DNA of 56,308 nucleotides from the NCBI RefSeq assembly GCF_003014555.1, contig NZ_PYGE01000028.1, positions 1-56,308 of the forward strand. Reading direction: 5' to 3'. Within the stretch, counting starts at the first letter, position 1. The number at the start of each line of letters is the position of its first letter. This document shows, in pieces, positions 1,912-50,508 of this stretch. The notes under the pieces are model-generated. The model made no database searches. It was not told the origin of the DNA and was given only the letters and a program-made list of their open reading frames with translations. The position numbers and the translations under genes are program-made. This stretch comes from Haloactinopolyspora alba (GTDB lineage Bacteria > Actinomycetota > Actinomycetes > Jiangellales > Jiangellaceae).

Positions 1912-2036
1912 CCGCGCACGCCGCAGCGATCAGCGCGAGCGACCTGACCACGGGCCTCCGTGTACTGGTGCCGATGGTGGCGCTCGCGCTGATCATGCTG
2001 TTCCTCGGCTGGTTCCGCAGCCGGGGTCAGGTCTGA
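1908..2036 (+). CDS. Small single-span membrane protein
   Basis: 42 residues, start overlapping the previous stop. A hydrophobic stretch (VLVPMVALALIMLFLGWF) makes one membrane span followed by a basic tail, so a C-in topology is likely. Its 3' end overlaps the 3' end of parB on the opposite strand by ten bases. Small membrane proteins of this kind are common in actinobacterial plasmid transfer regions, but no homology is claimed. Confidence 0.5.
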   Translation: MTAHAAAISASDLTTGLRVLVPMVALALIMLFLGWFRSRGQV

Positions 2037-3322
2037 GACTCGGCGAGGTCGACCTCGGCCTGGTCCATGCCGTCACGCTCCACCTGTGACGGCTCCCACC
2101 CGGCCGCCTTGAGCAGGTCCACGTACGCCGTCACCAGATCGTCCAGCCACACCCGGGGGCTATGCCACGCCGCGCCGAGGGCGAACTCTGCGCGGCGGCA
2201 CGCCAGCACGAGGGCCTGGCCCAGCGCGGCGGGCCCGGTGGCGTCGAGGTTCACGTCGACCTCGATGGTCCGGCCGTAGTAGACCGAGCTGGCGTTCATC
2301 GCCAGCAGCAACAGCCGCTCGTACCCCTTCGGCGGCTTCTTAGCCGCACCGATGCGGGCCACCACGTCCATCCGCACCTCGTGAGCAGCTTCGAGGGCTT
2401 CACGGTGTTTCAGTTTCGCCTCGTGCTCGGCCTGACGTTCGGCGCGCTCCTCCGGTGTCTCCAGGTGGCCCCAGCGGTGCCGCAGACCGTGCTCGGCGGG
2501 GTTGCGCACCCACGCCTCGAGGTGGCGGCCGCTCTTGTTCTGCACCCACACGACGTCCTCAATTGGCAGGCTGCGCGGGTCGGCGTCGTCGCCGTCCTCG
2601 GTGACGAGGCTGTAGGCCGACGTCATGGTGTCGTGGTCGATCGGGCCTTCATCGTCGTCGTCCTGGTCGGCCTCGTCGTGGATGGTCGCGCCGGCGGACT
2701 CGAGCTCGGCGCGCAGCTTGGCGACCTCTGCGGCGGCGTCGCGGCGGTTGCGGGCGTTCTTGAGGGTCCAGTCGAAGTTGAACCCGCCCGCGTCGCGGGC
2801 GAGCGTCTTGTACGTATCGGGGTCGTCGGCGAACTCCACCAGCGCGGCCGCCTGGTCGAGGGTCAGCTCACCCGCGTGCACACGGTCCTGCTCCGGCTCG
2901 GCCAGCTTCATCAGCGACCGCCGGGACGTGATGGTCTTGCGGTTGCGGCCGGTCAGCTTGGCCATCTCGGCGGTGTCGACGTCGTGCAAGGCGAGTTGCT
3001 CGTACGCCTCGCCCTCCTCGACGGCGGACAGGTTCTGCCGTTGCAGGTTCTCCACGAGCATGGCCCCGACGATCTCGGGTGTGGACTCGAGGTCGTCGCG
3101 GATGATCGCGGGCACCTCGGCCAGGCCCGCCTGGGTGGCGGCCGCGGCGCGTCGGTGGCCGGCGATGATGCGCCACCCGTCGAGCACCGGAGCGACGACG
3201 AGCGGTTCCAGCATGCCCTGGGACTTGATGCTGGCGGCCAGCTCGGTGAGGTCTCCGAGGTCGCGGCGGACGTTGCGCCCGTCGCCGATGAGCTTGTCGG
3301 TGGGGATGGTGTCGAACTGCAC
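2027..3322 (-). CDS. parB: ParB/Spo0J-family DNA-binding protein
   Basis: A 431-residue ParB-like protein. The N-terminal ParB/sulfiredoxin domain has LEPLVVAPV and the CTP-pocket motif GHRRAAAA. ENLQRQNLSAVEEGEAY and the HTH helix NRKTITSRR follow around residues 90-135. An acidic linker (EADQDDDDEG) precedes a long C-terminal region not seen in chromosomal ParB. The start is GTG 3322 with GGAGAGG upstream. No ParA ATPase is visible anywhere in the genome, so it may use a host ParA, act as a transcription or replication factor, or be an orphan. No parS-like site cluster could be identified by eye. Confidence 0.85.
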   Translation of the reverse strand: MQFDTIPTDKLIGDGRNVRRDLGDLTELAASIKSQGMLEPLVVAPVLDGWRIIAGHRRAAAATQAGLAEVPAIIRDDLESTPEIVGAMLVENLQRQNLSAVEEGEAYEQLALHDVDTAEMAKLTGRNRKTITSRRSLMKLAEPEQDRVHAGELTLDQAAALVEFADDPDTYKTLARDAGGFNFDWTLKNARNRRDAAAEVAKLRAELESAGATIHDEADQDDDDEGPIDHDTMTSAYSLVTEDGDDADPRSLPIEDVVWVQNKSGRHLEAWVRNPAEHGLRHRWGHLETPEERAERQAEHEAKLKHREALEAAHEVRMDVVARIGAAKKPPKGYERLLLLAMNASSVYYGRTIEVDVNLDATGPAALGQALVLACRRAEFALGAAWHSPRVWLDDLVTAYVDLLKAAGWEPSQVERDGMDQAEVDLAESQT

Positions 3323-25353: not shown

Positions 25354-26583
25354 TCAGGCGGCCATGCGGACGTGCCGCCGCCATAGATGCTCGGTGGATG
25401 CGATCGCGTACCGGCCACCGTCGAGCGAATGGTCGGCGGTCTTGATGGGCTTGTCCTCACCCCGCTCGGACGCCTTCGTGTCCCACGAGTAGCCGGGGGC
25501 CTCAGCGATCCAGCCGGCGCACCGGTCAGCGATCTTGAGGTTGTCCGTGGCGAGCAGGGACGCGACGGTGCGGATGCCGTGGCCGACATCGTTGGCCGCG
25601 GCCGCCACCCGGCGGAGACCGTCGTGGTAGAGCTGCGCCCGGAACGACGCGGCCGCCGGGTCGAGGAACACCCACTCGATGCGGGGCTCCTGCGCGTGCC
25701 CGGGCAGGTGCCGCGACTCCATCCAGTCCCGGAACTGCGCGGATTGCTGCGCGTCGGTCAGGGACTGTTGCACGAGGGCACGGTCGTAGCGCCACTCGTC
25801 GACGAGGTACAGCGAGTCGTCCCCGCCGAGCCCCAGGAGCAGCCCGGCGGACGTGGTGGACGTGCCGTGGTCCAGCCCGACACCGAACAGGCGACGCATG
25901 ACGGGCAGCTCGTCCCACCGGATGACGTGCCGGTCCGGCTCCCACATGTCGTACACCGCGCCCTCGGCCGACACCCACTCGCCGAGGATGAACCGCTTGT
26001 GCCACAGGCCCGTGTACTCGACCGCCTTGGCGTCGATGTACGCCTTGGATAGGCCCGGGTTGTCGGCCATGACGAAGTGCCACACCCGCCACCCGAGGGT
26101 GCTGGCGCGGTCCAGGAACTTCGTCTTCAGCCAGTGGTTCGGGCTGTCCGGGTTGGTCGTGCCGAACAGTTGCGCCCCGTCGACGGACAGCCGGCCGAGG
26201 AGCGTCACCCAGAACGACTCGGGCACGAGCGTGACCTCGTCGACGTACGCCCCGGCCAGCGTGATGCCGCGGATCTTCGGCTCGGCCTTCGCGTCGTTCG
26301 CGCCGAGCACGTGCACCAGGCGGCCCATCACCGTGGCGGTGGGCGCCCCCGGCTGCCAGGTGATGGCACGAGGGTCGATCTGCTCGATCACGTCGAGGAC
26401 GTTCCGCCCGATCGTGTCCCTCGTCTTGCCGATCATGGCGAGCGGCCCGGGCGGGGCAGCGTGCACGTACCGCAGCCACCGCAGGATCGACGCGATGGTC
26501 TTCCCGGACCGGATGGAACCGTGCCAGATGTTGACCGGTGCCGTCGCCTCACGGATGCTCGCCCGCTGTTTCGACGACAGCAC
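25354..26583 (-). CDS. Terminase large subunit
   Basis: 409 residues from GTG 26583 with AGGAGG five bases upstream. The ATPase domain has Walker A GSIRSGKT and Walker B AYVDEV; the coupling motif region GTTNPDSPNHWL and the nuclease domain with GLDHGTSTTSAG, VFLDPAAASF and DHSLDGGRYAI follow. It packages DNA through the portal. It begins nine bases after the folE stop, so the packaging motor and the DNA-modification enzymes are on one transcript. Confidence 0.93.
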   Translation of the reverse strand: MLSSKQRASIREATAPVNIWHGSIRSGKTIASILRWLRYVHAAPPGPLAMIGKTRDTIGRNVLDVIEQIDPRAITWQPGAPTATVMGRLVHVLGANDAKAEPKIRGITLAGAYVDEVTLVPESFWVTLLGRLSVDGAQLFGTTNPDSPNHWLKTKFLDRASTLGWRVWHFVMADNPGLSKAYIDAKAVEYTGLWHKRFILGEWVSAEGAVYDMWEPDRHVIRWDELPVMRRLFGVGLDHGTSTTSAGLLLGLGGDDSLYLVDEWRYDRALVQQSLTDAQQSAQFRDWMESRHLPGHAQEPRIEWVFLDPAAASFRAQLYHDGLRRVAAAANDVGHGIRTVASLLATDNLKIADRCAGWIAEAPGYSWDTKASERGEDKPIKTADHSLDGGRYAIASTEHLWRRHVRMAA

Positions 26584-26592
26584 GCGGGCCTC

Positions 26593-27168
26593 CTACCGGG
26601 TGAGGGCCATGAACTCGCTCCGCATCGCCGGGTCGGTGCGGAGCTGACCGGCGAGGTGGCTGGTCACCATCTCCGCGCCGGTGGCCCTGGCCCCGCGGTG
26701 GGTCATGCACGAATGCGCCGACCGGATGACGCAGCCGGCGGCCCTGGTGTCGAGGTGCCGGGTGAGCGCGTCGACGACCTGCTGGCCGAGGCGTTCCTGC
26801 ACCTGCGGGCGGGCCGCGTACTCCTGCACGACGCGGGACAGCTTGGACAGGCCCACGATCCGCGCCCCGGCGCTGGGGAGGTACCCGACGGTGGCTGTGC
26901 CGGTGAACGGGAGCAGGTGGTGCTCGCACACGGAGATGAACGGCACCGCGGTGACGACGATCAGGCCCGGGTCGTCGGACTCGGGCGGGAACGTGGTCTT
27001 GAGGTGCCGGTCCGGGTCGACGTGCTGCCCGGCGGTCATCTCGGTGAGCGCCTGCACGAGCCGGCGGGGCGTGTCTCGGCTGGCGTCGCTGTCGGGGTCG
27101 TACAGGCCGAGCTGGCCGAGCATGAGCGCCGCCGCGTCCACGGCCGGCGAGTTGGCGGTGGTGGTCAT
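26593..27168 (-). CDS. folE: GTP cyclohydrolase I
   Basis: 191 residues from ATG 27168, one base overlapping the queE stop. Signature residues: the zinc Cys/His in PFISVCEHHLLPF, VGLSKLSRVVQEYA, RPQVQERLGQQV and the second zinc Cys in RSAHSCMTHRG. It turns GTP into dihydroneopterin triphosphate, the first step of 7-deazaguanine synthesis, boosting flux beyond the host enzyme during infection. Confidence 0.95.
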   Translation of the reverse strand: MTTTANSPAVDAAALMLGQLGLYDPDSDASRDTPRRLVQALTEMTAGQHVDPDRHLKTTFPPESDDPGLIVVTAVPFISVCEHHLLPFTGTATVGYLPSAGARIVGLSKLSRVVQEYAARPQVQERLGQQVVDALTRHLDTRAAGCVIRSAHSCMTHRGARATGAEMVTSHLAGQLRTDPAMRSEFMALTR

Positions 27169-27902
27169 CAGCGGCTCCGCTCGTTCGGCCACAGCAGGGC
27201 GTGCAGGCGGGGCGTCAGGTTCCACCCCATCCGCAGCAGGTACGGGTCGGTCAGCAGGTCGCGGGCCGACGCGAGGAGCTGTCCGGGCTGGGTGCCTTCG
27301 GGCATGATCCACACGGCCCGGGCCGGGACGCTGTAGCGGCGCACGATGTCTCGTACGTCCTCGAGGTCGTCCCGGTCGGTGGCCACGAACTTGAACACGG
27401 CGCGGCCGTCCCGGGCGAGCGCGGCGAACTGCTTGAGCGCGCCGGGGCGGAGGGTGCGTTTCTCGTCCATGCCTGCGTGCGCGAGCTTCGGGGACACGTT
27501 GAACCGGACCCGCGGCCGCTGGGTCAGCTCGTCGGTGGGCGGGATGGTGCCGTTGGTCTCGACCTCGACGTCCTGGTCCAGCTCGTCCAGCCCGTCCAGC
27601 AGGGCCGCCATGCCGGGGCGGCGCTGGTGCATCAGCGGCTCGCCACCGGTCAGGACGGTGAGGCTGACGGGCTCGCCGGATGCGGCCACAACGTCGAGCA
27701 GGTCGCCGGCGGGCCGGTCGGTGATCTCTGCCTCGAGGTCGTGGCGGGTGGCGTCCCACGAGTACGGGGTGTCGCACCAGGAGCACGAGAGGTTGCAGTG
27801 GCCGAGGCGGATGAACGTCGCGGGGCGGCCGGTGGAGGGTCCTTCGCCTTGGATGGTGGGGCCGAAGACCTCCACGGTCGGCAACGTCGGTGTGTCGGTC
27901 AC
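27168..27902 (-). CDS. queE: 7-carboxy-7-deazaguanine synthase (radical SAM)
   Basis: 244 residues from GTG 27902, which overlaps the queD stop (GTGA). FGPTIQGEGPSTG, the radical-SAM cluster CNLSCSWCD (CX3CX2C), SWDATRHDLE, LTGGEPLMHQ and VEVETNGTIPP are diagnostic. The enzyme rearranges 6-carboxytetrahydropterin to 7-carboxy-7-deazaguanine (CDG). No queC for the next step is found in the genome. Confidence 0.95.
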   Translation of the reverse strand: MTDTPTLPTVEVFGPTIQGEGPSTGRPATFIRLGHCNLSCSWCDTPYSWDATRHDLEAEITDRPAGDLLDVVAASGEPVSLTVLTGGEPLMHQRRPGMAALLDGLDELDQDVEVETNGTIPPTDELTQRPRVRFNVSPKLAHAGMDEKRTLRPGALKQFAALARDGRAVFKFVATDRDDLEDVRDIVRRYSVPARAVWIMPEGTQPGQLLASARDLLTDPYLLRMGWNLTPRLHALLWPNERSR

Positions 27903-28345
27903 GCTGACCACCCGGCCTCGTTGACGTGGGTCTCCCGCACCCGAACGTGTGTGACGTCGGCGGAGGCGTCCAGGCTGTCCAGGATCAGCGTCGTGACCCG
28001 CGCCAGCAGCAGGGCGGCGCTCTCGACGGTCGGCCACGACAGGTCGCGGGTGTAGGCGTCCCAGCCGATGACGTACACCTTGGAGCCCATGTCGCGGAGC
28101 AGCGGCACCAGCGGGTCGTCGTGGCCGAGCATCGCGCCGTGGTCCAGGTGGGTGTCGATCCAGTCGCGCAGCTCGGCCTTGAGGCGGCCGAACTCCACGA
28201 CCGTTCCCACCTCGTCGATGGGGCCGGCGACTGTGATGTCGGCCCACCAGGAGTGGCCGTGGAGGTTCTGGCACTTCCCGGCCAGCGGCGGGAGGCGGTG
28301 CGCGGTCTCGAAGTTGTGCCGCACCGTCACCGTGTGGAGGGTCAC
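27899..28345 (-). CDS. queD: 6-carboxytetrahydropterin synthase
   Basis: 148 residues from GTG 28345 (GTGA overlap). FETAHRLPPLAGKCQNLHGHSW contains the catalytic Cys and the three zinc histidines; DTHLDHGAMLG and TVESAALLLA complete the PTPS-fold active site. Converts dihydroneopterin triphosphate to 6-carboxytetrahydropterin, the QueE substrate. Confidence 0.92.
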   Translation of the reverse strand: MTLHTVTVRHNFETAHRLPPLAGKCQNLHGHSWWADITVAGPIDEVGTVVEFGRLKAELRDWIDTHLDHGAMLGHDDPLVPLLRDMGSKVYVIGWDAYTRDLSWPTVESAALLLARVTTLILDSLDASADVTHVRVRETHVNEAGWSA

Positions 28346-28710
28346 TGGTCCTGGTCCTCTCCGGTCGTGATGGTGGCCCAGAACTCGCCGTCCTCGGACC
28401 AGCGCACCGTCGCGACGTTGACGATGGGGGCCAGCGCGACGGCGAGCTGGCGGGCGAGCGTTTCGCAGGACCTCGCCCCGTAGTCGACGAGGCCGGTGTC
28501 GGTGTCGTGGCCGAGGCGGCGCGCCTCGGTGTCGACGAGGTGGGCGAGGTCGTGGAACTCGACGTCGCGTTCGTCGTGTCCGACCCGGGCCTCCACGTCG
28601 ATGTGGAACAGGTGTCGGTGCGCGCACCGCAAGTACGACCGGTCGCCGTGCGCGTCGGGCCAGTTGTGCAGCCCGGGCACGGTGACGCGGGCTCCGATGG
28701 TCACGGCCAT
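28342..28710 (-). CDS. PTPS-fold paralogue of QueD
   Basis: 122 residues from ATG 28710. It keeps the PTPS-like outline (LHNWPDAHGDRSYLRCAHRHLFHIDVEA, VEFHDLAHLV, GARSCETLARQLA, SEDGEFWATI) but the histidine pattern is different: HRHLFHI replaces the QueD HGH signature, and the Cys sits in a different position. It therefore probably catalyses another step. Phages without queC need either to insert CDG directly or to decarboxylate it; a CDG decarboxylase (DpdL) has been proposed for some phages. Whether this is that enzyme cannot be told from the sequence. It overlaps dpdA and queD, so it belongs to the pathway. Confidence 0.7.
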   Translation of the reverse strand: MAVTIGARVTVPGLHNWPDAHGDRSYLRCAHRHLFHIDVEARVGHDERDVEFHDLAHLVDTEARRLGHDTDTGLVDYGARSCETLARQLAVALAPIVNVATVRWSEDGEFWATITTGEDQDQ

Positions 28711-29579
28711 GGGTGGGTGTCCTCCCGGGCGGCGTCGATGGTGTGCTGTACGGCCATGGCCGTGTTGCTGATGATCTGGACGCCGCGCTCGTACTCGTCC
28801 CGCGAGTACCACATGTCGGGTGGGAAGTCGGCGAAGTGGTCGAGCAGCGCCCACGAGTGCCACGACTTGAGCCACCGCAGCCCGGTCAGCCACGACGACG
28901 AGTCGCACGAGCCGCGGTACGGCATCGCGAGGGTGGTCGGGCTGGGTGAGACGCCGAGCAGGTGGGTCCAGAGGTACGGGTACGCCTTGGCGCGCTCGGC
29001 CATCGTCCAGACGAGGCGCATCCGTGTGGGTGCCGGTGCCTTGACGAGGTTCCCGAAGCACAGCCGGTCGTACTCGCCGGCGAGGGTGTCGTAGTAGTCC
29101 CAGCCGTCGAGCATCGGGTGGTACACGGGCATCGGCGTGATGCCGAGCTCGGTCTCGATGCGGGCGCGGGTGCGCGGCTTGTGCTCCACGCCGCCCTGGT
29201 CCAGCTCGATGACGCCCCACAGCCGGTCGGCGTACCGGTCGACGATCTGGGCGTAGCGGTCCCACAGGTCGTCGAACCCGTCGATCTCCTCCGGCGGCAT
29301 CGACAGGCCGTCGTCGTGGGACACCTCGTGGGCCCGGGCGTGCGACATGGCCAGGTTGAAGATGCCGGAGTCGAGCAGGACGGCGCGCTCGTCGCACAGC
29401 CGGTCGAGGATCGTGGCGTCCTTGTCGTTCTCGATCTCGTTGACGGCGACGAGGACGTGCGGCTGCTGGCTCTGCGCGATGTGGTCGATGTCGCCGGCGA
29501 GGAAGTACGTCCACGTCGCGTCGGGGTCGTACTTCCCGCCGCTGGTGGGCTTCACCCCGTCCGGTAGCTGCCGGGTCAT
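28701..29579 (-). CDS. dpdA: DpdA-like DNA deazaguanine transglycosylase
   Basis: 292 residues from ATG 29579, overlapping the ParB-domain gene stop (ATGA). TGT-barrel landmarks: LLDSGIFNLAMSHARAHE, WGVIELDQGG (probable catalytic Asp region), MPVYHPMLDGWDYYDTLAGEYDRLCFGNLVKAP, LWTHLLGVSP and the typical DpdA-like GSCDSSSWLTG. DpdA enzymes exchange guanine in phage DNA for a 7-deazaguanine base, blocking host restriction. The subfamily (DpdA1-4) needs alignment. Confidence 0.85.
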   Translation of the reverse strand: MTRQLPDGVKPTSGGKYDPDATWTYFLAGDIDHIAQSQQPHVLVAVNEIENDKDATILDRLCDERAVLLDSGIFNLAMSHARAHEVSHDDGLSMPPEEIDGFDDLWDRYAQIVDRYADRLWGVIELDQGGVEHKPRTRARIETELGITPMPVYHPMLDGWDYYDTLAGEYDRLCFGNLVKAPAPTRMRLVWTMAERAKAYPYLWTHLLGVSPSPTTLAMPYRGSCDSSSWLTGLRWLKSWHSWALLDHFADFPPDMWYSRDEYERGVQIISNTAMAVQHTIDAAREDTHPWP

Positions 29580-30373
29580 GCGGTGGCCCCGGCGTCGAGT
29601 TCCACGGTCTCGTCGGGGAACGCTGCCCGGTGCTTGTCGAGCAGGTGCCCGGCGAGGAACAGGTTCGGCTGCACGAGCAGGAACGGCGTCTCGCGGGCCT
29701 CGGTGGTGGTGGTCAGGTACGGCTCCGGGTACGGCGCGAACACGGTGCCGTCGGTGAGGCGGTCGGCCCACAGGTGGTGTTCGTCGCGGAGCCGGGCGAT
29801 GACGAGGGTGTGGCGGCCGACGCGCCACACCTGCCCGCGGTGGACCTCGGTGGCCGGGTCGTCGAATGTGACGTCCGCGAGGGCGAGGCGTTCCCCGGTG
29901 GACGGGGCACGGTCGTCGTCCTCGTCGTCGTCGAGGTTGAGCGGGTCCGCGTCCGCGTTGCGCATCAGCTCGGCGAGCGCGTCGTCGTCGTACCCCGTGC
30001 CGTCCAGGTCAGGCAGGTCCTCGGTGAGCAGCGCGAGCAGCGCCTCGCTGTCGTACGTGCCGAGGTCGGACGTCCGGTTGTCGGCCGCCACGATCCGGGC
30101 GGCCGACACGTCGTCCACGTCCACCGTGACGGCCTTCACCGTCGACCAGTCGAGCTGCTTGGCCGCGTCGAGGGTGTGGTTACCGGCCAGCACCTCGAGC
30201 GGCCGCCCGGTCTGGCGGCCCGTGTTCACGATGATGGGCCGGTACTGCCCGTTGGCTGCGAGGGACGCCGCGATCGCGTCGACGTCGCCGCGGCGGGGGT
30301 TGCGGTAGTACCGGGCCAGCTCGGTCACGTTGAAGTCGACGACGGCGAGGTCATGCTCCGGGGTCTGCGTCAC
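29576..30373 (-). CDS. ParB-domain protein of the DNA-modification block
   Basis: 265 residues from GTG 30373. The N-terminal half is a ParB/sulfiredoxin-type nucleotide-binding domain (VTELARYYRNPRRGDVDAIAASLAANGQYRPIIVN, VLAGNHTLDAAKQLDW, AARIVAADNRTSDLG). A very acidic patch (LDDDEDDDR) and a C-terminal domain with DVTFDDPATEVHRGQVW follow. ParB-domain proteins of this type often accompany phage DNA-modification genes; it may guide or regulate base exchange. It is distinct from the parB at 2.0-3.3 kb. Confidence 0.7.
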   Translation of the reverse strand: MTQTPEHDLAVVDFNVTELARYYRNPRRGDVDAIAASLAANGQYRPIIVNTGRQTGRPLEVLAGNHTLDAAKQLDWSTVKAVTVDVDDVSAARIVAADNRTSDLGTYDSEALLALLTEDLPDLDGTGYDDDALAELMRNADADPLNLDDDEDDDRAPSTGERLALADVTFDDPATEVHRGQVWRVGRHTLVIARLRDEHHLWADRLTDGTVFAPYPEPYLTTTTEARETPFLLVQPNLFLAGHLLDKHRAAFPDETVELDAGATA

Positions 30374-30752
30374 TGGTGGAATCTCCGATGAGCTGGTCGA
30401 GGAGCGTGGCCACGGCGTTCGTGGACGAGCTCGAGTCCGGGGTGTCCAGGCCGAGGTACTTGGCGCGGCGGTCCATGAGCTTGATGACGCGGTCGACCGC
30501 GCCCAGGTCGCCCCGGCGTGCCCGCGACCACAGGCCGAGGAGCATCGCGTCGAGCCGGTCGAGCTCCATGTCGCGGACCCGTTCGGCCGGTTCGCGGGTG
30601 ATCTCCGTCAGGGCGTCCGAGAGGTCCTGCGCGACCTGCTCGTGGCTGATGTTGAGCTGCTTCGCGATGGCCCGGTACGAGCCGCCGGCCTCGCGTAGGT
30701 CGAGCACCTGCGCCATGCGTTCGCGGCGGGCCTTCGTGATGCGTTTCGCCAT
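30351..30752 (-). CDS. Terminase small subunit
   Basis: 133 residues from ATG 30752. LDLREAGGSYRAIAKQLNISHEQVAQDLSDAL is the DNA-binding HTH of small terminases; the helical middle and flexible end (DTPDSSSSTNAVATLLDQL) fit the ring-forming part. It recognises pac or cos DNA and loads the large subunit, from which it is separated by the six-gene modification block. Confidence 0.78.
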   Translation of the reverse strand: MAKRITKARRERMAQVLDLREAGGSYRAIAKQLNISHEQVAQDLSDALTEITREPAERVRDMELDRLDAMLLGLWSRARRGDLGAVDRVIKLMDRRAKYLGLDTPDSSSSTNAVATLLDQLIGDSTSDADPGA

Positions 30753-32748: not shown

Positions 32749-34758
32749 TCACCCGGCCTCGATGTCGGGCGCGAGGTCGAGGCGACGCCACCGCAGCGGG
32801 CGGCCCTCGATGCGCTCGAGGTAGCCGGCCGTGGTCCACGCCTTGAGCCGGTCCGCGAGGGGCTGGCGGGACGTGAACTCGATGGCGGGGTCGAGCTGGA
32901 GCTGTTCGATGGTGGCTCCGTCCGGGTGGCGGGTGAGGGCGTCCCACACGGTGACGTCCTGCTGGCGGATGGGGTGCCCGTCCGGGAAGCGGCGCTGCAT
33001 CCGCACGGGTTCGACGGTGGGGTGGTCGGTGTCGGGGACGGCGGCCAGGTCGGGCCGGTCGTCGTCGAGGGTGTCGTCCGGGTCGTATGAGGCGACGGTC
33101 TCGGACAGGGTGATGCCGGGCAGGTCCGGGGCGGGCACCTTCGCGGCCGTGTCGGTGAGGGTGGCCAGGTCGTCGTCGGGCACGAAGAAAGCACGCATCA
33201 ACCTCGGGCGGGCCGTGCCGGCGGCGAGGTAGCCGAGGCCGCGCCGCTCGGGGTCGATGGTGGCGGCGTTGACGCCCGCGCCGTCGCCGAGGGCCATGCG
33301 GGAGCCGTCGCCGTCGGACATCCGCATCGCGAGGCGGTAGGTGAACCCGGCGCGCATGTCTCCGGTGAGGAGGTTCGCGGACGGGCGCTGCGTGTCGGCG
33401 ACGACGATGACGCCTACGGACCGGCCGACCTGGAGGATGTCGAGCAGCGCGGTCATGAACTTCTGCCCGGTCTCGGCGGTGGTCTCGAGGGTGAACCGGG
33501 CGAGCTCGTCGATGACGAGGACGATGAGGCCGAGGTCGTCGCCGCGCTGGACGTTGCGGTGGCGGCGCTCGCGCAGGATGCGCTGCCGCCGCGCCATGGT
33601 GCGGCGGAGGTCGTCGAGCAGGGCGAGCGCTGCCTCGGGGTTGCTGTCGACGTAGGCGGTCATGCGGGGCCGCCACCCGGGCAGTTCGGTGATCTTCCCG
33701 TCGAGGCCCCACAGGGACACGCAGGGGTCGAGCGCGGCCGCGGCGGTGATCATGCTGAGCACGTTGGACTTGCCGGAGCCGGACTCGCCGGCGATGAGGA
33801 CGTGCCGCTCGATCAGGTTGAGCGGGGTGAGGTCGCCGGCCCGGTTGAGGCCGAGGGGCATGCCGTCGTACAGGTCGGTGCGGTTGCTGCCGAGCCAGGG
33901 CCACGGGGTGGGGTTGGCGAGCAGGTCCTTGGTGTGGACGAGCACGCGGACGCGGGATGCCTTGCGGGTGTCCTCCAGCACCTCGACGTCGTCGACGCCG
34001 ACGTCGAGCATGCCCGCCAGGTCCGGGCCCTTGGTGTCGGCCACGGTGCGGCCGTTCTTCCCGGGCGGCAGGATGAGCGTCTGCGCGTACCCGGACGCGA
34101 TGCGCTCGCGGGTGCCAGCCCAGGCGGCGCCCGCGAGACCGAGGGGCTTGAACGGGTCCTCGACGGCGGGCGCGGCGTCCGGGACGAGGTGGCCGGGCAG
34201 GTTCACCTCGACGTGGCGCGGGTCGCGCCGGGTGAGCAGCCACGGCCAGTACACGACCCCGACCGCGGTGGCGAGGACGAGCAGCACGAGATAGGCGGGC
34301 CAGGACGGGCCGGTGGCGGTGACCCATGCGGCCCAGGCGAGGAGTAGCGCCGCGCCGACGGCCGCGCCGAGGACCGCGCGGGAGCGTTCCCCACCGCGCT
34401 TCGCGGCGAGGTACGCGACGACGGCCGCGCCGGCGGCGGGCAGTCCGTAGACGCCGAGCGCCTGGGTCTGCGCGGCCGCGCCGGCCGCCATGTGGTGCAC
34501 GGCTGTCAGGCCGAGCAGGCCGTGCCCGGCGGTGTACGGGACCAGCTCGGCGCGGAATCGCCATGCGGCGCGCCCGGTGGCGCGGCTCGCGACGGCGGTT
34601 CCGTGCGCGGTGGCGCGCCCGGCGCGGACGGAACCTCGTCCGGTGGCGCGGGCGGCGCGCGCCGTCGTGGCGCGCGCCTTGGCGCGGCGCTGGTCGGGTG
34701 TGAACCGGGTGGGGTCGGAACGGTCGGGCGCGAGCTTGACGACCGTAGGCTGTGCCAC
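32749..34758 (-). CDS. TraB-like FtsK/SpoIIIE DNA translocase
   Basis: 669 residues from GTG 34758 with GGAGG upstream. The basic N-terminus is followed by membrane spans (LPAAGAAVVAYLAA, AVLGAAVGAALLLAWAAWV, YLVLLVLATAVGVVYWPWLL). The motor domain has Walker A IAGESGSGKSN, Walker B LIVLVIDELARF and GVIVVADTQRPSANLL. A C-terminal winged-helix-like part (DALTRHPDGATIEQLQLDP, LKAWTTAGYLERIEG) could read DNA motifs. In actinobacterial plasmids such proteins alone pump double-stranded DNA between mycelial cells. Presence beside an SpdB-like gene supports a transfer role; chromosome-type segregation is an alternative. Confidence 0.85.
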   Translation of the reverse strand: MAQPTVVKLAPDRSDPTRFTPDQRRAKARATTARAARATGRGSVRAGRATAHGTAVASRATGRAAWRFRAELVPYTAGHGLLGLTAVHHMAAGAAAQTQALGVYGLPAAGAAVVAYLAAKRGGERSRAVLGAAVGAALLLAWAAWVTATGPSWPAYLVLLVLATAVGVVYWPWLLTRRDPRHVEVNLPGHLVPDAAPAVEDPFKPLGLAGAAWAGTRERIASGYAQTLILPPGKNGRTVADTKGPDLAGMLDVGVDDVEVLEDTRKASRVRVLVHTKDLLANPTPWPWLGSNRTDLYDGMPLGLNRAGDLTPLNLIERHVLIAGESGSGKSNVLSMITAAAALDPCVSLWGLDGKITELPGWRPRMTAYVDSNPEAALALLDDLRRTMARRQRILRERRHRNVQRGDDLGLIVLVIDELARFTLETTAETGQKFMTALLDILQVGRSVGVIVVADTQRPSANLLTGDMRAGFTYRLAMRMSDGDGSRMALGDGAGVNAATIDPERRGLGYLAAGTARPRLMRAFFVPDDDLATLTDTAAKVPAPDLPGITLSETVASYDPDDTLDDDRPDLAAVPDTDHPTVEPVRMQRRFPDGHPIRQQDVTVWDALTRHPDGATIEQLQLDPAIEFTSRQPLADRLKAWTTAGYLERIEGRPLRWRRLDLAPDIEAG

Positions 34759-34792
34759 GGCAGACCTCCGGGGGTCTCGGAGTGTTCTGTCA

Positions 34793-34834
34793 GCCCGCGC
34801 CCCGGCGTGCCTCCAAGCGGACCGGGGCGCGGGC
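34793..34834. promoter_or_regulatory. Leader hairpin upstream of the translocase
   Basis: Perfect 13-bp arms GCCCGCGCCCCGG with a 16-base loop, 35 bases before the GTG start. It would fold in the mRNA leader and could attenuate expression. Confidence 0.5.
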
Positions 34835-34859
34835 ACCTTCACTAGGAACAGGGTAGATC

Positions 34860-48531: not shown

Positions 48532-49194
48532 TTACTCCGCTCTCCCCCGGTTGCGTCCGAACAGGCCACGGCGTGGCGCGGGCTCCTCCCGGGCGGCCTC
48601 CGCCTCGGCCCGCAGCCGCTCCACCTCGGCCTCGCGCTCGGCGCGTGCCCGTTCCAGCTCCGCCTGGTGCTCCTGCTGCTGCTCGGCCAGCCGGCGGTCG
48701 GCCTCCGCCTTGGCCTCCGCGGCGGTTGCCTCGGCCCGCTGCGCACGGTCACGCTCGAACGCCAGTTGCTCCTGGTACAGGCTCTCGACCTTGTCGGACG
48801 CGGCGGTGTGCGCCTCGATCGCCCGCGGCAGGATCTCGTTCACGACGGCCCGGACGATGCCCTCCACGTCCGGGTGCCCGTCAGCTGACGCGCCGGAGTT
48901 CGAGGGCTGCGCTCCTCCCCCGGTGTCCCGCCGGCGGAGCTGGTCACGGAGCCGGTGCACTGACTCCTGGCTGAGCCGGTACGGGTCTGTCGACACCGCG
49001 TTCAGCTTGCCGCTGCGTACCCACTGCCGCACCTGAGACGGGTCGCGGCCGAGCAGCTTCGCGGCCTGCCCCGTGCTGTAGGTGTCGGAATCGCTGACCG
49101 GCGGGGCGGAGGCGATGGCCTCCTCCTCCCCCGGTGTCACATCGGTCTCCTCCGGGTCCATACCTCCGGAGTCTGCTCCTCCTCCGGCGCTCAT
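48532..49194 (-). CDS. HTH/coiled-coil protein beside the initiator (partition candidate)
   Basis: 220 residues, ATG 49194 overlapping the initiator stop. A disordered acidic N-terminus, a MerR-like HTH (YSTGQAAKLLGRDPSQVRQWVRSGKL, then RLSQESVHRLRDQL), a linker helix, then about 80 residues of continuous coiled coil (QEQLAFERDRAQRAEATAAEAKAEADRRL onwards) and a basic tip (RRGLFGRNRGRAE). HTH plus coiled coil next to rep recalls single-protein plasmid partition factors such as pSK1 Par. Copy-control or membrane tethering are alternatives. Confidence 0.65.
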   Translation of the reverse strand: MSAGGGADSGGMDPEETDVTPGEEEAIASAPPVSDSDTYSTGQAAKLLGRDPSQVRQWVRSGKLNAVSTDPYRLSQESVHRLRDQLRRRDTGGGAQPSNSGASADGHPDVEGIVRAVVNEILPRAIEAHTAASDKVESLYQEQLAFERDRAQRAEATAAEAKAEADRRLAEQQQEHQAELERARAEREAEVERLRAEAEAAREEPAPRRGLFGRNRGRAE

Positions 49195-50294
49195 GCCCGT
49201 TCCGCTCGCAAATCGACGTATGGGCGTGTCGGCCGAGCCTCATCGGCTCGTGCATCAGCTCGGCATCCGCCGCAGTTGTCGGCGGGGTGCCCGGGGTGAG
49301 TTGGGCACGCCTCGGATTTTCTCGTCGCCGTCGGCGTCGGAGTCGAGTCCGGCTGGGGCGCGCCGTAGGTGCGCCTTGAAATCGACCACTGAGCAGCGGG
49401 AGCCGCCTGAGCAGGGCCGGGGACCCGCGTGACTCGGGCGACGTACCGGTCGATCCACGGCACACCTTCCGAGCCGGCGGCACGAGCCGCAGCGGTGATG
49501 ACCTCGACGGCGAGGCCCTGGTCCAGGAGCTCGAGCGCGGTCCGGGTGGCCTTCGCGCACATCGGCGCGGTAGCGGGGGTTGTGTGCGCGGCTGCGTATG
49601 CGTCCGTCCAGGCCTCGGCCACTCGGGCGGCCGGCGTAGCCGTGCCGCCGTCCGCAGGCGTCGTCGTCGAATCGGCCCCGCGCGTAGAGGGGGAGGGGGG
49701 AGTTGTCTTCTTTGGGGGTCGCCCGTGACCCCCCTGGGGGTCGGGTACGGGCTGGGGGTCAGCATTTACCCCCGGGTCGTGTGTAACCCCCGGGTCAGCA
49801 TTTACCCGGGGGGTCTGCTCGCCCGAAGCGGCCTCCTCCTGCGTCTCCTCCTGCGGAGCCTCCTCGGAGAACAGCGGGGGAGTGGCGCTCCGGGAGGCGC
49901 GGGGAGTCTTCTCCGGGTACGGCACAACCGGCGCGACGTCGCTGGACCACTCGAGCACGTAGTCGTTGGTCTCCTGCCCGCCGTCCTGCGCGAACCGCTC
50001 CACGATGGTCAGCAGCCCGGACTCGCGGAGCTGCCGCATGGTGGTCTTCGCCTTCTCCCGCGACCACCCGAGGTCGTTGCCGACCGTGGCCATGGACGGC
50101 CGCCCGTGGTTCTCGTTCTGCGTGCGTCGCCACAGGTAGGCGTACAGCCGCACGGCTGCGTCGGACAGACCCGACTCGATCACGCCCGCTGGCACCATCC
50201 CGAACGGGCCGAGCGCGGTGCGGATCCGCCCGCCATTCGGCGTGTCGTCGTCTGGGGTGTTGCTTTGTCCAGACGTACTTGTACCCTGGCTCAT
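49191..50294 (-). CDS. Replication initiator with internal iterons (lambda-O-like architecture)
   Basis: 367 residues from ATG 50294 with AAGGAG seven bases upstream. Residues about 30-120 are a winged-helix domain (LSDAAVRLYAYLWRRTQNENHGRPSMATVGNDLGWSREKAKTTMRQLRESGLL), the helix_turn_helix_36 type found in phage initiators. A low-complexity middle (about 130-240) is encoded by the iteron DNA. The C-terminal helical domain (VAEAWTDAYAAAH, ALELLDQGLAVEVITAAARA) and a Cys-rich tail (CPTHPGHPADNCGGC) follow. It would bind the iterons and recruit host helicase. The genome encodes no polymerase or helicase. Confidence 0.7.
   Translation of the reverse strand: MSQGTSTSGQSNTPDDDTPNGGRIRTALGPFGMVPAGVIESGLSDAAVRLYAYLWRRTQNENHGRPSMATVGNDLGWSREKAKTTMRQLRESGLLTIVERFAQDGGQETNDYVLEWSSDVAPVVPYPEKTPRASRSATPPLFSEEAPQEETQEEAASGEQTPRVNADPGVTHDPGVNADPQPVPDPQGGHGRPPKKTTPPSPSTRGADSTTTPADGGTATPAARVAEAWTDAYAAAHTTPATAPMCAKATRTALELLDQGLAVEVITAAARAAGSEGVPWIDRYVARVTRVPGPAQAAPAAQWSISRRTYGAPQPDSTPTPTATRKSEACPTHPGHPADNCGGCRADARADEARPTRPYVDLRAERA
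49716..49807. repeat. Iteron array inside the initiator gene (candidate origin)
   Basis: Units of the form GGGTC-N6-(A/T/G)ACCC: 49756-49771, 49774-49789 and 49792-49807 are exactly 18 bp apart; a further good unit lies at 49716-49731 and a degenerate one begins at 49738. Each unit is itself an imperfect palindrome. In the gene direction they are followed by a local A-rich stretch near 49695-49712. The codons give a repeat of V-N/T-A/H-D-P. Confidence 0.65.
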
Positions 50295-50508
50295 ACGGCG
50301 ACTCCTTCCAGTCGCTCTGGGCCGGGTGTAGCGCGACAGCCACGAAGCGCTCCCCGGCCCGGCCCATGTCTGGGGCCGGATATTTGGGAAGTCCCGGCAG
50401 GCATCGAGGCCCAATTCGACACCACCGGGACGGTGTTACTGGCGATCAAACTAGCGGCATCGTCACAGCAGACGGTGGAGGACGACGACGACGAGGGCTG
50501 GCGTGTCG
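50295..50508. other. Leader region of the initiator operon, no gene
   Basis: 214 bases before the initiator start. Minus strand shows a TTGATC-like -35 near 50450 and AT-rich patches (AAATATCC near 50380), so a dedicated promoter is plausible. No GYCTAGRC operator is present, unlike most early genes. Confidence 0.4.

Follow-up and report, generated by a model that had tools for sequence, protein, structure and literature searches.

The window, that is, the whole stretch of 56,308 nucleotides that was analysed, carries a 95-bp exact repeat common to both contig ends and therefore represents a complete circle, a phage genome of 56.2 kb. Eight genes form a packed row on its minus strand, in the order HTH protein, ParB-like protein, DpdA-like protein, the small PTPS-fold protein S122, QueD, QueE, FolE, and terminase large subunit. 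The HTH gene (30351..30752; phrog_645, E 8e-26, with HTH_7 above the Pfam cut-off) stands first, a position that suggests a TerS-like protein, and overlaps the ParB gene by 23 nt; phrog_645 itself carries the PHROGs annotation 'Rnase E'. From ParB through FolE, neighboring genes overlap by 1-10 nt each, in agreement with the sequence-only reading, which had described folE, queE, queD, a DpdA-like gene, a ParB-domain gene, and a second PTPS-fold gene as tightly overlapped (26593-30373). A gap of 9 nt separates FolE from the terminase gene directly downstream (25354..26583; phrog_2, E 3.9e-41), whose product is 53% identical to the terminase of Streptomyces phage Ididsumtinwong.

FolE (GTP cyclohydrolase I, 26593..27168; PF01227, E 1.2e-53), QueD (CPH4 synthase, 27899..28345; PF01242, E 2.3e-22), and the radical SAM enzyme QueE (CDG synthase, 27168..27902; phrog_2076, E 6.6e-58) would together produce 7-carboxy-7-deazaguanine (CDG). 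All three are encoded on the minus strand and the key residues of the latter two are retained: QueE has its CxxxCxxC motif at residues 36-43, and H16, C25, H29, H31, D68, H69, E108, and E138 of QueD are invariant in 22/22 rows. The ParB, DpdA, S122, QueD, QueE, and FolE genes all lie within one locus in 26 other viral records, so the grouping exceeds chance.

DpdA proteins are divided into subfamilies 1-4. The DpdA-like protein of the window (28701..29579, minus strand), a DNA guanine transglycosylase by assignment, matches only two PHROGs, phrog_887 (E 4.8e-15) and phrog_7068 (E 0.001), and tblastn at E 1e-5 finds no match to it in 50,697 phage records. Its predicted model (pLDDT 89.6) has the TGT fold, with TGTs in all 50 rows shown by VIA (Z 16.4, rmsd 4.5, 256 aligned); Foldseek alone gives a weak result (best E 1.3e-3, with other barrels among the rows). 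A profile search with the DpdA alignment against solved structures returned no match, so PHROGs and structure comparison together are the basis for assigning the protein to the TGTs. D127 and D226 are present in 38/38 rows, and D70 in 37/38, the remaining row being gapped there, as it is for the DSG motif at positions 70-72 (37/38). By motif, we take these Asp residues to be the named catalytic residues of TGT. The preceding ParB-like protein (29576..30373, minus strand; phrog_723, E 1e-52) has a conserved C-terminal tail. At E up to 1, Pfam lists one family for it, ParB_N, which scores 23.2 bits against a cut-off of 26.3. The ParB-like gene lies upstream of dpdA in 33/35 loci (the remaining two are truncated at that point) and is coupled to dpdA in the manner of DpdB, the ParB-like partner of DpdA, which is characterized by ATPase activity and a DndB-type domain.

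No full-length QueC domain is found in the phage circle or in the host assembly. The search with PF06508 covered all 5.5 Mb of that assembly and would also have registered Gat-QueC. Its single match, on contig C5, scores 24.3 bits against a 22-bit cut-off and spans 57/210 positions of the domain; the protein itself belongs to the asparagine synthases (PF00733, E 9.5e-18). A six-frame scan of the circle reveals one SGGxDS string, at ~19.3 kb, in a frame without a PF06508 match. The absence of QueC noted from the letters therefore holds, and neither search yields a candidate for a queC hidden elsewhere in the circle or the assembly. TGT and QueF are likewise not found in the host assembly, which makes tRNA queuosine an unlikely purpose for the operon; as was first supposed, it looks like a DNA-modification operon.

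S122 (28342..28710, minus strand) matches phrog_17812 (E 2.6e-18), which PHROGs labels 'unknown function', and no Pfam model scores above its cut-off; the fold is assigned from a predicted model (pLDDT 93.9). The top match of this model is E. coli QueD (4ntm_B; Z 13.9, rmsd 2.1, 110 aligned), Foldseek gives a best E of 1.1e-6, and hhalign pairs S122 with QueD at a probability of 96.9, all pointing to a PTPS T-fold. S122 shares with the QueD/6-pyruvoyl tetrahydropterin synthase family the T-fold, the His triad, and glutamates. Thirteen positions are fixed in 113/113 distinct rows (H15, L27, H31, R32, H33, F35, R48, E51, S81, C82, E83, E106, and D107), the rows of Bakedbeans and MA9V-3 being C-terminal parts of longer frames. 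Among these positions are H15, H31, and H33, which appear to form a triad of the QueD zinc-binding type; the residues are mapped by motif, because hhalign sets the HRH of S122 two columns off the HGH of QueD. With C82 and the E106/D107 pair, the fixed set looks like an active site. S122 differs from the QueD family in what it lacks. There is no conserved Cys at positions 26-33, where L27 is fixed, to match the catalytic Cys of QueD, and residues 53-80 include no invariant or near-invariant residue that could correspond to the Asp-His pair. For these reasons S122 is not classed as a QueD, and a separate, intact QueD adjoins it.

The distribution of S122 is complementary to that of QueC. Among 35 IMG/VR records with this type of DpdA, the window's included, S122 is present in 31 and QueC in three, and none has both (Fisher p 6e-4, without kinship correction); QueC thus occurs in three of the four records that lack S122. 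A set of 17 QueE phages, chosen by hand among 40 rows taken at even spacing from 352, yields 14 with QueC, two with S122, one with neither, and none with both (Fisher p 0.02). In seven phages chosen for S122, QueC is above the cut-off in none; a sub-threshold PF06508 match in phage X1 is an NAD synthase. Outside the DpdA set there are 89 S122 loci, of which 49 records were searched (the 40 longest of 80, plus nine others), and full-length QueC is found in 0/49. Partial PF06508 matches occur in three of these; the two longest are NAD synthases and the third spans 36 positions. With all sets pooled, full-length QueC is found in 0/89 S122 records vs 17/19 records without S122, though many viral records are fragments, which makes the absences soft. 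QueE accompanies S122 in 8/9 named phages, and FolE, QueD, or QueE matches appear in 59/89 S122 loci outside the DpdA set, many of them short and all obtained with window-derived profiles.

The two genes also exchange position. In 3/3 QueC loci the QueC match begins 3-9 nt past the last sense codon of dpdA, and S122 lies no more than 60 nt behind dpdA in 27/31; S122 occupies the queC slot, directly behind dpdA. In the DpdA tree (38 rows kept; window copies excluded, as were L094-L097 and L100-L102, loci that are distant or duplicates; bootstrap still short of full settling), QueC falls on three separate branches, and the starred branches force three changes. The QueC label is unclustered on this tree, although with three such rows shuffles could show nothing else. 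A simple screen of S122 against QueC phages identifies no DpdA column that clearly separates them and one variable position, for three QueC rows only. Taken with the three changes on the tree, this suggests that one DpdA type serves both. The closest DpdA to that of the window (L103, 59%) comes from a 46.6-kb record in which S122, QueC, and QueE were not found, nor FolE and QueD at its locus, a point against the proposal that follows.

We propose that S122 acts on CDG where QueC otherwise would, and that it most likely decarboxylates CDG to 7-deazaguanine (DG). DpdA, aided by the ParB-like protein, would then exchange guanine for DG in DNA, so that the final base would be dDG rather than preQ0. 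Such a route would branch off before preQ0, and dDG could protect the DNA from enzymes that read guanine N7. An operon that inserts 7-deazaguanine in this way, with S122 as a CDG decarboxylase replacing QueC, is in our judgment the probable one. The sequence-only reading had the pathway stop at CDG unless another enzyme acted. It was right about QueC and overlooked S122, which is very probably that enzyme, given its place in the queC slot, the lack of any full-length QueC beside it in the records examined, and the three tree changes. Its further prediction of dCDG or dDG rather than preQ0 survives in part: preQ0-type DNA appears unlikely, and judging from the genes the choice shifts towards dDG.

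S122 might instead pass CDG on to DpdA, as a carrier or a dead QueD paralogue, with the carboxylated base inserted as such. We consider this unlikely, even though the last assigned enzyme yields CDG, which, as the substrate of QueC, was raised by Hutinet 2019 for the queC-less phage Bipper (PMC6884629). The missing catalytic Cys and Asp-His of QueD would suit an inert S122, but the 13 fixed positions and their active-site-like character would not, and a neutral base would be easier than an anionic one to reconcile with the presence of the same DpdA type in QueC phages.

Since exclusion of QueC does not fix the reaction, S122 could also make another, hitherto undescribed 7-substituted base from CDG in a metal-dependent manner, or act on a base already in DNA. 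Faecalibacterium phage Roos is in keeping with this. Next to a Vut_1 uptake transporter, its complete record shows S122 together with a DpdA-like gene; QueE was not found there, so the base or its precursor would need a source outside the phage, a point that also counts against our proposal. The DpdA-like gene is suggested by our own reading, without a Pfam match. We nonetheless regard this explanation as quite unlikely, because decarboxylation needs no second substrate and family scans of S122 (~120 aa) find no separate domain for binding a nucleotide, SAM, or an amide donor.

It is very improbable that preQ0 is made through QueC activity from the host or from a diverged enzyme. DpdA-only phages may depend on host preQ0 or on uptake (PMC6884629), but no genuine QueC, and neither TGT nor QueF, turned up in the host assembly, and the presence of S122 in the queC slot would go unexplained. 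That the operon is inactive, or the DNA unmodified under lysogeny, is scarcely credible: the element was sequenced within a host genome assembly and the operon is known here from its genes, but the reading frames are intact and the key residues kept.

The insertion of dDG through S122 can be set against systems already described. Mycobacteriophages Rosebush and Saguaro and E. coli phage CAjan likewise combine DpdA with FolE, QueD, and QueE; they carry QueC, whereas here QueC is absent and S122 stands in its place. Rosebush and CAjan DNA contains dPreQ0 (PMC6884629, Table 2). The Saguaro order, ParB-DpdA-QueC-QueD-QueE-FolE near the terminase, is the same as that of the window with QueC in the slot of S122. 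The Bipper type (Cracklewink) lacks QueC, as here, and has ParB, DpdA, a small gene, QueD, QueE, FolE, and terminase. For that small gene, gene 4, hhalign detects no kinship to S122 (probability 0.3, from a single sequence), and S122 was not found in the record.

Both dDG and dCDG were reportedly found in phages by Cui et al. 2023, who are said to have predicted a CDG decarboxylase, DpdL. With these bases known and such an enzyme already predicted for phages, the present operon is a variant of a known theme. DpdL, of the dDG phages, resembles S122 in its predicted step and kind of operon, a likeness by description only. S122 occurs in QueC-less DpdA phages that would make CDG, as is reported for DpdL; Roos, without QueE, is the exception. 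Literature searches on DpdL, and on decarboxylase with deazaguanine, gave no description of DpdL among the matches listed. The 2023 study is cited in PMC12783734, PMC13329287, and PMC11515303.

The proposal offers a testable function for the widespread family phrog_17812 and would account for the use of the deazaguanine pathway by QueC-less phages. If it is true, the pathway switch consists of one gene slot, two enzymes, and two DNA bases; it would help to explain restriction evasion by phages and might provide an enzymatic route to dDG-containing DNA. A broader claim seems to us evenly poised between right and wrong: that S122 is a small QueD-like decarboxylase working without an organic cofactor, that it has swapped with QueC several times, and that a dPreQ0/dDG switch operates through a single slot on a DpdA branch beyond tblastn reach of the phage records. 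A comparable chemistry has been proposed in Streptomyces, where the tubercidin pathway described in PMC6112128 (TubA-C and TubF) follows the FolE/QueD/QueE route to CDG, and the carboxylate would then be lost. The CDG-branch decarboxylase described there, TubF, is a 422-aa protein of the UbiD family proposed to act after ribosylation, which speaks against the decarboxylation suggested for S122; S122, in contrast, is a small T-fold protein.

The operon lies on the minus strand in the order HTH protein, ParB-like, DpdA-like, S122, QueD, QueE, FolE and terminase large subunit, with neighbors overlapping by 1-23 nt as far as FolE and a 9-nt gap preceding the terminase gene. Twenty-six other viral records carry all six genes, ParB-like through FolE, in one locus, and 6 more carry five of them, two of these being QueC records. 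QueE of the window keeps the CxxxCxxC motif, and the His triad, Cys and Asp-His of QueD are kept in 22 of 22 rows. The DpdA-like protein has no match in a Pfam search and matches phrog_887 with an E-value of 4.8e-15. The nearest structures to its model (pLDDT 89.6; Z 16.4, rmsd 4.5, 256 aligned) are tRNA-guanine transglycosylases, which account for all 50 matches listed; Foldseek of this model is weak by itself, with a best E-value of 1.3e-3 and other barrels among the rows. Asp127 and Asp226 are present in all 38 rows of the DpdA alignment and Asp70 in 37, the remaining row having a gap there.

The sequence-only reading described a 7-deazaguanine DNA-modification operon lacking queC, and that observation is borne out. 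The QueC family PF06508 yields one match in the entire host assembly, which is formally above the cut-off, but spans 57 positions of an asparagine synthase and is ruled out as QueC. Searches of the assembly for TGT and QueF gave no matches; as far as these searches go, the phage pathway therefore does not serve tRNA queuosine. The earlier interpretation is supported in part and can be sharpened: S122 appears to stand in for QueC, and the operon most likely gives dDG.

S122 (28342-28710, minus strand), a small PTPS-fold protein of 122 residues encoded between DpdA and QueD, is modeled with a pLDDT of 93.9, and its nearest structure is Escherichia coli QueD (Z 13.9, rmsd 2.1, 110 aligned; Foldseek E 1.1e-6), with a profile-profile probability of 96.9 against QueD. 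Residues His15, Leu27, His31, Arg32, His33, Phe35, Arg48, Glu51, Ser81, Cys82, Glu83, Glu106 and Asp107 are invariant in all 113 distinct S122 rows. No conserved counterpart of the QueD Cys and Asp-His was found in the S122 alignments, and hhalign places the His triad two columns off the QueD register. All 41 aligned members match phrog_17812 ("unknown function"), and only five match the QueD family PF01242 at E 0.1 or better.

Relatives of S122 were found by tblastn in 27 records, including Cellulophaga phiST, Acidovorax ACP17, Vibrio Bakedbeans, Rhizobium RHph_I1_18, Xanthomonas X1, Chryseobacterium MA9V-3 and Faecalibacterium Roos. All seven relatives examined have a folE, queD, queE or dpdA-like gene within 8 kb (the dpdA-like gene of Roos is our own reading), and none of their records contains QueC above the cut-off; a weaker partial PF06508 match in X1 is an NAD synthase. 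The 35 records with a window-type DpdA, the window included, comprise 31 with S122, three with QueC, none with both, and one, L103, with neither (Fisher's exact p = 6e-4, uncorrected for kinship and with some near-duplicate rows). Seventeen QueE phages hand-picked from an even spread include 14 with QueC, two with S122 (Paride and Phosso), none with both and one with neither (Cracklewink; p = 0.02). Partial PF06508 matches of 36-68 positions occur in three of 49 further S122 records; one is above the cut-off only together with its neighbors in frame, and both of the longer matches proved to be NAD synthases. With all sets pooled, many of the viral records being fragments, full-length QueC is found in 0 of 89 S122 records and QueC in 17 of 19 records without S122.

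The two genes also share a position. The QueC match begins 3-9 nt past the last sense codon of dpdA in all three QueC records, and S122 lies within 60 nt behind dpdA in 27 of 31 records, being more distant in four. Saguaro has the matching gene order, with QueC. The QueC rows fall on three branches of the DpdA tree, whose well-supported branches force three changes, though the bootstrap is not fully settled. A simple screen of DpdA columns, with only three QueC rows, found none that clearly separates the S122 and QueC types, which points to a single DpdA type that takes either product.

FolE, QueD and QueE produce CDG by an established pathway, as described in PMC11888242. In the phage, these three enzymes would supply CDG, which S122 would take in place of QueC and decarboxylate to 7-deazaguanine, and DpdA would then insert this base as dDG. 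For a T-fold protein this small, with a probable metal site and lacking a second substrate, decarboxylation would be the simplest reaction. Cui et al. (2023) reportedly detected both dDG and dCDG in phages, and predicted DpdL as a decarboxylase of CDG. Several points count against the proposal, among them the shifted His-triad register and the fragmentary state of many viral records. The tubercidin decarboxylase TubF, as described, belongs to a different family from S122. L103, whose DpdA is the closest to that of the window (59%; L103:7201-8900, with ParB), shows no S122, QueC or QueE in its record and neither FolE nor QueD in its locus. Finally, QueE was not found in the Roos record, where S122 is surrounded by ParB-like and DpdA-like genes (our naming) and followed by a Vut_1 uptake transporter (L008:7267-9863). 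As Hutinet et al. report (2019, PMC6884629), dPreQ0 was measured in Rosebush and CAjan, CAjan modification requires DpdA, and Bipper lacks QueC, with CDG possibly its base.

Cracklewink, of the Bipper type, has neither QueC nor S122, and its slot holds an unassigned gene of 141 residues (L136:2047-2472), whose kinship with S122 is unsupported. The same operon occurs on the chromosome of Streptomyces sp. CB01881 (L153:4248-9110), where S122, QueD, QueE and FolE accompany two DpdA genes in tandem. In Bakedbeans (L007:7173-8324) and MA9V-3 (L009:7446-8327), the annotated protein is longer: S122 makes up its C-terminal part, and the N-terminal part is different. At L110:1695-1946, S122 is matched as two adjoining pieces, possibly through sequencing error or gene decay.

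The ParB-like protein (29576-30373) may help DpdA find DNA. In bacterial Dpd systems, DpdA is described as being helped by DpdB, a ParB-like ATPase that is perhaps dispensable in some (PMC12839542), and a ParB-type gene of mycobacteriophage CRB2 is suggested to be a DpdB homologue (PMC6392294); by analogy, the window gene may do the same. Its conserved C-terminal tail contains GDVWxLGxHxLV, then PYPxP, then VQPxxYxAGxxLD, and by eye resembles a truncated fusion of ParB and methyltransferase that lacks catalytic motifs; phrog_498 ("DNA methyltransferase") aligns to residues 8-192.

The window, contig C28 of the 5.5-Mb assembly, has 95 identical bases common to both ends and is thus a complete circle; the identical contig is present in IMG/VR as a virus. 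Outside the operon 20 frames were scanned. Portal, head, major capsid, tape measure, endolysin and terminase genes identify a tailed phage, and a second ParB-type gene (2027-3322), an FtsK/SpoIIIE-like gene (32749-34842) and a replication initiator (49191-50414) point to a possible phage-plasmid life style. Megablast of 24.9 kb of the window gave one plasmid match of 47 bases and phage matches covering at most 4%. The terminase shares 53% identity with its counterpart in Streptomyces phage Ididsumtinwong.
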